Source of the DNA: Arthrobacter burdickii
GTDB taxonomy: Bacteria > Actinomycetota > Actinomycetes > Actinomycetales > Micrococcaceae
Direction: 5' to 3'
Assembly (NCBI RefSeq): GCF_030433645.1
Contig: NZ_JAROCG010000002.1
Span: forward strand, 744,001 to 808,000
DNA: 64,000 nt
Both the position numbers and the translations under genes were made by a program. Of the stretch, positions 45,062-47,700 are shown in pieces; position 1 is the stretch's first letter; each line of letters opens with the position of its first letter. The notes beneath the pieces are model-generated. The model searched no databases, was not told where the DNA came from, and saw nothing but the letters and a program-made list of their open reading frames with translations.

Positions 45062-45535
45062 GTGACGAAACCAGCACCGGACCAGCTCCGCCAGATCGTC
45101 GGCGGAGCCGTCGTCGACTCCCTCGACCATCCGACCCGCCTGCTCGTGGCGCGGCGGACGGCACCGCCGCAGTTCGCCGGGATGTGGGAGTTCCCCGGCG
45201 GGAAGGTCGAGGCGGGGGAGACCTGCGAGACCGCCCTGCGGCGTGAACTCGAGGAGGAGCTCGGGATCCAGGCACGCCTCGGCGAGGAGATCCCCGGTCC
45301 GGGTGCACAGGGCTGGCCGCTCAATGAAGCGGCCGCGATGCGTGTCTGGTTCGTGGAGGCATCCGCCGGCGACGCAGCGCCGCTGCAGGACCACGACGAA
45401 CTGCGATGGGTCCCGTTACACCCCGCCCAGGAGCTGGATGCCCTGCCCTGGATTCCCGCCGACCGACCCATCCTCGTCGCGCTGAGAGCCAGGACGGGAC
45501 TGCAGGTCCAAACCGGCGAAGGAAGCCTGCGCTAG
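45062..45535 (+). CDS. Nudix hydrolase, MutT-like (8-oxo-dGTP diphosphatase type)
   Basis: 157 residues from GTG 45062. The Nudix box is complete: GGKVEAGETCETALRRELEE followed by ELGI. The preceding QFAGMWEFPGG is typical of MutT-like enzymes that cleanse oxidised nucleotides. The C-terminal part has LRWVPLHPAQELDALPWIPAD. Its TAG stop forms part of GCTAGA, the 6-base target duplicated by the IS element that begins two bases later. The coding sequence is intact. Confidence 0.9.
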   Translation: MTKPAPDQLRQIVGGAVVDSLDHPTRLLVARRTAPPQFAGMWEFPGGKVEAGETCETALRRELEEELGIQARLGEEIPGPGAQGWPLNEAAAMRVWFVEASAGDAAPLQDHDELRWVPLHPAQELDALPWIPADRPILVALRARTGLQVQTGEGSLR

Positions 45536-45536
45536 A
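45531..45536. repeat. Left target-site duplication GCTAGA
   Basis: GCTAGA abuts the left IS end and matches GCTAGA at 46653-46658 exactly. It contains the Nudix stop codon and, on the minus strand, the transposase stop codon. Confidence 0.93.
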
Positions 45537-46535
45537 TGTACTGCCCAGGGAGGTTGGTTAGCCGGGTGATGGGTGGTTTGCCTCCGATGGCGGTGTGGGG
45601 CCTGTGGTGATTGTATTCGTGGAGCCATGCCGGTAGTGCTGCCCTGCGGGCTGATTCGCTGGGGTAGTGGCGGCTGAACGCCCACCCGTCGGCGAGGGTG
45701 CGGTGGAAGCGCTCGATTTTCCCGTTGGTCTGCGGCCGGTACGGCTGGGTCTTCTTGACTTTGATGCCGAGGCTGGCGCAGGTCTCGCGCCAGAGACGCG
45801 ATTTGTAGGCTGAGCCGTTGTCGGAGAGGACCCGGTGGACGGTGATCCCGCGGTCGGCGAACCAGGACACGGCCCGGCGCAGGACACCGATAGCGGTGGT
45901 GGCTGTCTCATCGTCGTGGATCTCGGCGTACGCGACGCGGGAGTGATCATCGATGACGGTGTGCACGAATGCGGTGCCCATGATTGTGCCGCGGTATTTG
46001 TTACGGGGCTTGCCCGGGGTGCCGGCCCTGTTCCGGCCGCCCTGGTGCCGACCGACGTACCGCCAGCCGCCGCCGTCGGGGATGTTGCCGAGTTTCTTCA
46101 CATCGACGTGGATCAGGTCCCCGGGCCGCTCGTGCTCGTAGCGGCGGATGACATCACCGGTGCGGACTGTTAGCGAGCACGGACGTGGTGCAGCCGGTTG
46201 AGCCGGCAGCGGGTGAGGACGGCGTGGACCGTGGACGCCGGCACCCCCAGACGAGCGCCGATCCCGACCGGTCCGAGGCGTTTCTTCCAGCGCAGATGCG
46301 CGATCTTCCGCACCAGGACCGGCGGTGTTCTCGTGGGGCTGTGGTGCGGGCGCGAGGTGCGGTCCTGCATGCCCTCCCGGCCCATCGCCGCGTACCGGTC
46401 GGCCCACCGTTTGGCGGTCGGCCAGGACACGTGGAAGAACACGGCAGCGTGAGCGACGGGCCACCCGTCGTCGACGATGAGCTTTGCGATCCGCAGCCGT
46501 TGAATCGGAGTCAGAGCAGCATTAGCGTGAGACAC
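45532..46535 (-). pseudogene. IS481 family transposase, frameshifted
   Basis: The N-terminal half (GTG 46535 to TAA 46170) encodes the helix-turn-helix part: VAHAAVFFHVSWPTAKRWAD to LGVPASTVHAVLTRCRLNRL. The catalytic half continues in the -1 frame: YEHERPGDLIHVDVKKLGN (first Asp), VLSDNGSAYKS (second Asp), NGKIERFHRTLADGW (Glu), ending LTNLPGQYI. All three DDE residues are present. Single-ORF organisation is normal for IS481, so the break near 46170-46185 probably inactivates it. No slippery heptamer is visible there. The stop codon lies outside the element, in the duplicated target. Confidence 0.9.
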
Positions 46536-46652
46536 GAGGACCTCCTGATCGATACCGGACCCTAGACAGCTCCACTCTCGATCGGAGGTCCTCCTCGCGT
46601 CCAGAACCTACAACGCGTCCTCACACATCAACCAACGTCCCTGGGTAGTACA
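45537..46652 (-). mobile_element. IS481-type insertion sequence, 1116 bp
   Basis: Ends are 23-bp imperfect inverted repeats (45537-45559 and 46630-46652). They share TGTACT, CCCAGGGA and GTTGGTT, with two mismatches, and have the 5'-TGT...ACA-3' termini of the family. The flanks carry an exact 6-bp duplication GCTAGA, which fits the NCTAGN target known for Bordetella IS481. It holds one frameshifted transposase gene and no passenger gene. Exact duplication and near-identical ends suggest fairly recent insertion. Confidence 0.96.
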
Positions 46653-46658
46653 GCTAGA
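46653..46658. repeat. Right target-site duplication GCTAGA
   Basis: Exact copy of 45531-45536. Its CTA is the stop codon (minus strand) of the radical SAM gene. Confidence 0.93.
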
Positions 46659-47700
46659 ACAGCGACGTCTGGACGGCTCGGGACGCAGCGGCCGGCGCCA
46701 GTGGAACCGGCTCGTGCCCGCCGCCCGGGGACAGATTGCGGAAGAAGCCGGCGCCCGCCGCGAGTCCGTGCTTCCGGCGGAAGATCCGGATCCTGCCCGA
46801 GAGCCAGTCCCGGTATTCCTTGGACGCGTAGCTCCCGCCGCGGTAGAGCGCCTCGTACTTCGGGACGAGGTGGGGATGGTGGGCGGCGAGCCACTGCAGG
46901 AACCACTCGCGCGAGCCCGGCCTCAGGTGCAGGGGGCCGGCTGTCACGCCGGTGGCTCCAGCGGCGGCCAGCTCGCCGAACAGCCGGTCGAGCGATTCGT
47001 CGCCGTCCGTGAGCCAGGGCAGGATCGGCATGGCCATCACGCCGCACGGGAGTCCTGCCTCGCGCAGCCGTGAGATCAGGGCGAGCCGGGCCCGCGGGGT
47101 GGGGGTGCCCGGTTCGATCGCTTCGGCGAGGACCGGATCCACGAGTGCGAGCGAGATGCCCATCCCGATCCCCACCGACTTCGCAGCGGCCTTCAGCAGC
47201 GGGATGTCGCGGGCGAGGAGGGTGCCCTTCGTCAGGATGGAGAAGGGCGTGCCGGAGTCGGCCAGGGCCGAGATGATGCCCGGCATCAGCGTGTACCGGC
47301 CCTCTGCGCGCTGATAGGGATCGGTATTGGTCCCGAGGGCCACATGCTCGCGCGACCAGGACGGGCGGGCCAGTTCCCGGCGGAGCACCTCCGCCGCGTT
47401 GATCTTCACGACGAGCTGCGCATCGAAATCCAGCCCGGTGTCGAGGTTGAGGTAGCTGTGCGTCTTCCGGGCGAAGCAGTACACACAGGCATGGGAGCAG
47501 CCCCGGAAGGGGTTGATCGTCCAGGAGAACGGCATCGACGACGTGGGCGGCACCCTGTTGAGGACTGACTTCGCGGTCACCTCGTGGAAGGTGATCCCGG
47601 CGAACTCCGGGGTCCGGACCGTCCGCACCAACCCCGCAAGGGGCAGCAGGGCGGACTCGGCTCCGCCGTCGTCCCTGATCTTCTGGCCTTCCCACCGCAT
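46654..47700 (-). CDS. Rv2578c family radical SAM protein (SplB-like)
   Basis: 348 residues. The radical SAM cysteines are C68, C72 and C75 in RGCSHACVYCFARKTHSYL. TNTDPYQRAEGRYTLMPGI and ISLALVDPVLAEAIEPGTP fit the Rv2578c/SPL-like group, related to spore photoproduct lyase. DNA repair is a possible role but the reaction is not established. A LexA-like palindrome lies 9-24 bases upstream of the ATG, overlapping a -10-like TCTAAT. The gene ends exactly in the IS target duplication and is intact. Confidence 0.9.
   Translation of the reverse strand: MRWEGQKIRDDGGAESALLPLAGLVRTVRTPEFAGITFHEVTAKSVLNRVPPTSSMPFSWTINPFRGCSHACVYCFARKTHSYLNLDTGLDFDAQLVVKINAAEVLRRELARPSWSREHVALGTNTDPYQRAEGRYTLMPGIISALADSGTPFSILTKGTLLARDIPLLKAAAKSVGIGMGISLALVDPVLAEAIEPGTPTPRARLALISRLREAGLPCGVMAMPILPWLTDGDESLDRLFGELAAAGATGVTAGPLHLRPGSREWFLQWLAAHHPHLVPKYEALYRGGSYASKEYRDWLSGRIRIFRRKHGLAAGAGFFRNLSPGGGHEPVPLAPAAASRAVQTSLF

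Follow-up and report, generated by a model that had tools for sequence, protein, structure and literature searches.

Insertion sequences of the IS481 family are ~1 kb long, carry one transposase frame and are marked by TGT ends. TnRErm46 (ISRe46) of Rhodococcus equi, a member of this family, targets CTAG and leaves an NCTAGN duplication, as does the element described here; the TAG of the duplication ends its transposase and, at some sites, also ends the target gene, the function of which is kept (PMC6794481). ISLxc2 of Leifsonia xyli is 1105 bp long, with an NCTAGN duplication and TGT ends resembling those of our element, and the transposase stops of ISLxc2 and ISLxx4 lie inside the host insertion site (PMC2516522). 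CTAG targeting with stop-sharing (TnRErm46, ISLxc2), and specifically the supply of a stop by CTAG to the transposase and, at some sites, to the target gene, is already published (PMC6794481, PMC2516522). IS481 of Bordetella pertussis makes the same 6-bp duplication, with the consensus NCTAGN, and has been reported at CCTAAC (PMC3053399); 11 of the 159 elements surveyed here are likewise off consensus. CTAG repeats are also described for an IS5-family element (PMC9241763).

TnRErm46 differs from our element in being a 6.9-kb transposon with cargo, and convergent shared stops, or enrichment at them, are absent from the parts of that paper covered here (PMC6794481). For ISLxc2 and ISLxx4, the passages covered give insertion sites only as within genes or intergenic and contain no test of stop codons (PMC2516522). 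Among the titles, abstracts and passages of the openly licensed literature, we recognised no earlier report of enrichment at shared stops.

An IS481-type element at a convergent gene junction

The window (the whole 64,000-nucleotide stretch of Arthrobacter burdickii DNA that we analysed) contains an IS481-type element between a Nudix hydrolase gene and a radical SAM gene (Table 1). The first bases of the element body are TGTACTGCCCAGGGAGGTTG and the last are the reverse complement of TGTACTACCCAGGGACGTTG; the terminal inverted repeats match at 18 of 20 bases and have TGT/ACA ends. The transposase matches PF13011 (LZ_Tnp_IS481) with 36.7 bits (cut-off 22.2) in its N-terminal part, and PF00665 and PF13683 (rve/DDE) in its C-terminal frame. 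Together with the NCTAGN duplication, these domains and ends are those of the IS481 family, and the length also fits. The transposase is split into two frames, with 11 extra bases relative to copy L080 (1105 bp), the transposase of which has 96% protein identity to the window copy over the matched part. The N-terminal frame stops inside the 11 extra bases, and homology in the C-terminal ORF begins near residue 97 of the ORF as listed; several near relatives of the element have a single-frame transposase. Judged by its sequence, this appears to be an unremarkable element of the IS481 family whose transposase is broken.

Table 1. Features of the insertion and its flanking genes (window coordinates)
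Feature	Position	Strand	Evidence and remarks
Nudix hydrolase gene	45062..45535	+	ORF; PF00293 E 2.8e-20; TAG in left target copy
Left copy of target duplication GCTAGA	45531..45536	.	TAG of Nudix gene (+) and transposase (-)
IS481-type insertion sequence, 1116 bp	45537..46652	-	Ends, duplication, Pfam
Terminal inverted repeat, transposase 3' side	45537..45556	+	18/20 bases match other end
Transposase C-terminal catalytic part (rve domain), different frame	45532..46176	-	PF13683, PF00665; stop TAG within target duplication
11 extra bases splitting transposase frame	46168..46178	-	Alignment with L080 (1105 bp); position as aligned
Transposase N-terminal part (HTH, IS481 leucine-zipper domains)	46170..46535	-	PF13011, PF13384; alignment
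Hairpin downstream arm GGAGGTCCTC with Shine-Dalgarno-like GGAGG	46536..46545	-	Directly before GTG start 46535-46533
Hairpin upstream arm GAGGACCTCC	46584..46593	-	Covariation in 48 elements
Terminal inverted repeat, transposase 5' side	46633..46652	-	Match to opposite end
Right copy of target duplication GCTAGA	46653..46658	.	TAG of radical SAM gene (-)
Radical SAM gene, intact	46654..47700	-	ORF; PF04055 E 1.6e-13; TAG in right target copy

The element itself supplies no stop codon for the transposase frame, which instead uses the TAG in the left target copy (45532-45534, minus strand); the first base of the target completes the last codon. This places the element with stop-borrowing IS481-type elements such as TnRErm46 and ISLxc2. 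The target TAG terminates the transposase frame exactly in 63 of the 106 set A elements with assigned ends (see below). In stop-borrowing relatives the first target base dictates the last residue, which is usually I, T, S or N. Annotators should note that the transposase frame of such elements often ends outside the element. At one locus (L099, 8993-10594) the target is ATAG, and the transposase frame continues into host DNA, giving 533 aa, because this target offers no stop. Seven further elements from the same genome as the window (L071-L077) have the same TGTACTG ends, CTAG target and exact 6-bp duplications. They differ in belonging to other subgroups, with ~50% protein identity to the window element, and in having transposase frames whose stop codon lies 9 or 12 bases in from the element end, such that the target TAG is not needed.

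The earlier note on this DNA described a 1116-bp element flanked on both sides by GCTAGA, with both host genes preserved; sequence, ORFs and Pfam matches bear this out. Joining the flanks with a single target copy yields one CTAG common to the Nudix and radical SAM stops, a 4-base overlap, confirming that the two stops share one CTAG after excision. The proposal that the 6-bp duplication left a complete TAG to each gene also holds, since each stop lies within one GCTAGA copy. The anatomy of the junction is read from sequence; from the ends and the duplication we infer a transposition event in which a DDE transposase inserted the element in the CTAG formed by a 4-base tail-to-tail overlap of the Nudix and radical SAM genes. 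Six bases are duplicated, each host gene has its own TAG, and the TAG adjoining the 3' side of the element serves as the stop for the stopless transposase frame.

A radical SAM match at E <=1e-60 is present in 34 of 38 genomes of the genus, and we compared empty sites at 30 radical SAM loci in the genus, one from the window's own genome and 29 from relatives. The earlier note had predicted relatives with a CTAG overlap of the Nudix and radical SAM genes at an empty site. Exactly this overlap was found in three of the 29 relatives (L021, L024 and L036). In one other relative (L039) the two genes overlap at TTAA, and in the remaining 25, including the nearest relative (L018), the junction is different. 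From these junctions we conclude that the predicted junction exists in relatives but is labile. In the nearest relative, the two genes are separated by 59 bases built of CTAGAACAG-like repeats, with the Nudix stop in the first repeat. Repeats of the radical SAM 3' end (CTAGAACAG-like) lie between both genes near 1438-1498 of this locus, and also at L037 and L038; the Nudix-radical SAM junction seems prone to short duplications.

Shared stops among IS481-type insertion sites

A single insertion at a shared stop was rejected as proof of a preference. We surveyed IS481-type insertions in three sets of loci. Set A consisted of 120 regions around IS481-type transposase matches in the window's genome, genus and family; nine places were from the window's genome and the rest were hand-picked from the top of ranked lists, avoiding contig edges and overlaps, such that not every listed place was taken. 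These regions held 128 transposase matches, 106 with TGT/ACA ends assigned and 22 without ends. Exact duplications flanked 68 of the 106; for many of the other 38, the assigned ends are wrong. Set B comprised the best 80 of 580 relatives, whose titles are nearly all actinobacterial (that of L243 is Salinicola), with 81 matches, 63 with ends and 48 exact. Set C was 69 further loci of the class (29 loci and 40 regions; L271 was omitted as the same place as L152), with 69 matches, 67 with ends and 50 exact, or 43 after dropping seven duplicates. The window is in neither set B nor set C.

Altogether, 159 non-duplicate elements with exact duplications were obtained, that of the window included. Their target core is CTAG in 148, TTAG in seven, CTAA in three and ATAG in one; 142 of the CTAG targets lie at least 300 bases from the locus end, and 138 are left once sites beside another IS481-type end are removed. 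After in silico excision of the elements, we predicted genes by codon usage, with a caller that gave plausible genes on the window; the other CTAGs of the same loci, classed like the target CTAGs, served as controls. All p values given here are uncorrected, and many comparisons were run. CTAG is rare in the window, with 26 occurrences versus 64.8 expected from shuffles. It is not limited to stops or intergenic DNA: called genes contain 399 of the 1130 control CTAGs.

Convergent shared-stop CTAGs made up 12 of 142 targets versus 5 of 1130 controls (OR 21, p 9e-9; sets A, B and C together). The earlier note had called for such a comparison, and the enrichment that it expected was observed, more strongly outside the window's own family. 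In set A, which covers that family, the difference was borderline (2/60 versus 3/714, p 0.051), and shared stops did not differ significantly from single stops (p 0.29). By contrast, shared stops were 6 of 43 targets versus 2 of 371 controls in set B (p 2.2e-5; best 80 of 580 relatives) and 4 of 39 versus 0 of 45 in set C (p 0.043), or 10 of 82 versus 2 of 416 for sets B and C together, from which the window is absent. Permutation within loci gave an expectation of 5.0 shared stops, with a maximum of 10 in 5000 permutations, versus the 12 observed; by set, p was 0.058 (A), 0.0004 (B) and 0.25 (C). For set C, with its short loci and few controls, the matched permutation gave p 0.10 for any stop. 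In a larger background, to which 82 further loci added 648 CTAGs and the window 23, shared stops were 7 of 1796 CTAGs (~0.4%); none of the 23 other classed window CTAGs is one.

Sites beside other IS481-type elements, considered as the source of the enrichment, were rejected: with these sites removed, shared stops were 12 of 138 targets versus 4 of 1125 controls. Removing the window insertion as well left 11 of 137 versus 4 of 1125, and additionally counting L261 as a single stop left 10 of 137 versus 4 of 1125 (p 1e-7, OR 22). These counts bear on the possibility that the excess arises artificially from the gene caller, from locus edges or from the way in which loci were selected. There are grounds for the suspicion: the caller was home-made, set A was chosen by hand, set B was the best 80 of 580, and the partner gene at L261 is doubtful, being 34 aa long and without a family match. 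However, targets and controls share both their sequences and the gene caller, and the odds ratio was similarly high with stricter gene calling (10/138 versus 4/1125, OR 21.9), with wider edge trimming (9/119 versus 3/952, OR 25.9), and, as above, without the window and with L261 downgraded. The 12 shared-stop pairs are spread over 11 genomes or records, with L274 and L324 both in G396. A scan of all 24 partner proteins gave a Pfam match on at least one side for 10 of the 12 pairs (the exceptions are L261 and L193, where neither gene matches a family), and on both sides for five (the window, L235, L255, L294 and L324). We therefore regard an artefact as very improbable.

The excess at shared stops is the extreme of a wider pattern. 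Any gene stop accounted for 74 of 142 targets versus 204 of 1130 controls (p 2e-17), and tail-to-tail junctions with a gap of <=100 bases accounted for 39 of 138 targets versus 45 of 1125 controls. By contrast, only 14 of 142 targets were inside genes, versus 399 of 1130 controls, and among sites outside genes only 10 of 127 targets were in divergent regions, versus 176 of 727 controls. Away from shared stops lie 130 of the 142 insertions. All nine insertions analysed from the window's own genome (L071-L079, exact duplications) are at gene stops, versus 28 of 82 other CTAGs there. The suggestion that shared stops are preferred harmless sites is partly supported: the enrichment is present, and preference may mean either that such sites are chosen or that insertions survive there.

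Four insertions (L092, L123, L137 and L143) are in a CTAG beside another IS481-type end. CTAGs abutting such an end made up 4 of 60 targets versus 5 of 714 controls in set A (p 0.003); the duplication beside an IS481-type end renews the target.

Survival and targeting at gene ends

We fitted a conditional model by locus (123 targets and 968 controls) in which the reference class was the remaining, mainly tandem intergenic, CTAGs. With adjustment for flank GC and palindromy, odds ratios (with approximate intervals) were 0.30 inside genes, 0.34 in divergent regions, 2.0 for tail-to-tail intergenic sites and 1.8 for tandem single stops (both of the latter intervals include 1), 3.2 for tail-to-tail single stops, and 19.8 (4.7-83) for shared stops. 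Targets lie in more GC-rich and more palindromic surroundings than controls, most clearly <=3 bases from the CTAG; for intergenic sites alone, flank GC was 0.724 at targets versus 0.613 at controls, and target arms were more palindromic. GC-rich or palindromic flanks were rejected as the sole cause of the excess, the odds ratio for shared stops being 17.5 without these terms in the model and 19.8 with them. An orientation choice placing the transposase downstream of the host gene was also rejected: relative to the stop gene, transposases showed no orientation bias (30 codirectional versus 29 head-on).

The depletion inside genes and in divergent regions, and the lack of an orientation bias, fit an explanation by survivorship and target availability, which we consider the probable cause of the pattern. 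CTAG is under-represented in this DNA, and stops are among the places that do contain it; in addition, transposition seems to favour GC-rich, palindromic surroundings. Purifying selection would then remove insertions that break genes or promoters, and an insertion in a shared-stop CTAG would persist because neither gene loses coding sequence.

Survivorship explains the remaining excess at shared stops less well. Compared with tail-to-tail intergenic CTAGs, shared stops were enriched at all distances (OR 11.8, p 3e-5) and at gaps of <=200 (OR 6.9, p 0.01), with a difference that was not significant at gaps of <=100 (OR 4.5, p 0.07). At gaps of <=100, single stops and intergenic sites were used alike (OR 0.98), whereas shared stops (12 targets and 4 controls) exceeded single stops (21 and 32; p 0.02). 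Survival alone would favour CTAGs lying free between convergent genes almost as much as shared stops, so that part of the excess is left unexplained. This excess over other tail-to-tail CTAGs, and the non-random choice among intergenic CTAGs by flank GC and palindromy, are what would be expected if the transposition complex favoured gene ends or sites where transcription converges, for instance because of supercoiling, open DNA or colliding polymerases, such that shared stops were hit, and not just kept, more often. We nevertheless consider such active targeting unlikely: orientation is unbiased, the depletion inside genes and in divergent regions is what selection predicts, and single stops do no better than intergenic sites in tight junctions.

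Shared stops being the most enriched class counted, carriers might instead gain from an insertion that separates the interfering transcripts of overlapping convergent genes. Positive selection of this kind is improbable, given that relatives retain the overlap with no element at the junction (the three of 29 with the CTAG overlap), and that the 12 shared-stop insertions lie between apparently different gene pairs, which argues against one favoured function. A 4-base target that coincides with the overlap of convergent TAG stops provides sites where insertion costs no coding sequence, and the old insertion-sequence question of choice versus survival at harmless sites becomes directly testable.

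A hairpin at the transposase start

The Shine-Dalgarno region of the transposase in the window can pair with an upstream arm (Table 1), in a conserved, covarying inverted repeat that would hide the ribosome-binding site in transcripts arriving from outside; the folding of the window copy has a z of -3.66. A start was recognised at 69 distinct 5' ends, and at 60 of these the upstream DNA contains an exact complement of at least nine bases to the Shine-Dalgarno region, and the mean longest complement is 10.9, versus 4.3 in base-shuffled upstream DNA. In 48 elements that are <=85% alike, 92.4% of cells pair, and both-side changes occur in 41 cells, versus 11.9 in shuffles and <=11 when the arms are slid; the structure played no part in making the alignment, although it had been derived from these very sequences. 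Incoming host transcripts are subject to a comparable block on transposase expression in IS10. By analogy, the hairpin likely prevents transposase expression from host transcripts that enter the element; alternatively, the inverted repeat may act as DNA.

The hairpin can be combined with the features of the junction in a more far-reaching proposal, which we regard as doubtful: that the element has a built-in safe harbour, its target word being the overlap of two convergent TAG stops and its machinery adding a preference for shared-stop CTAGs, with renewal of the site class and hairpin shielding of the transposase start as parts of the same arrangement. If this were true, one duplicated CTAG would supply complete stops to both host genes and, in an intact copy, to the transposase; the new junction between transposase and host would itself be a shared-stop CTAG, regenerating the site class; and the covarying hairpin would shield the transposase start from incoming host transcripts, as expected at gene ends.

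An internal CTAG lies between the hairpin arms of the window copy (46562-46565), within a GTGGAGCTGTCTAG motif. Of the 159 exact elements, 52 carry a CTAG within 160 bases of their end on the transposase 5' side.
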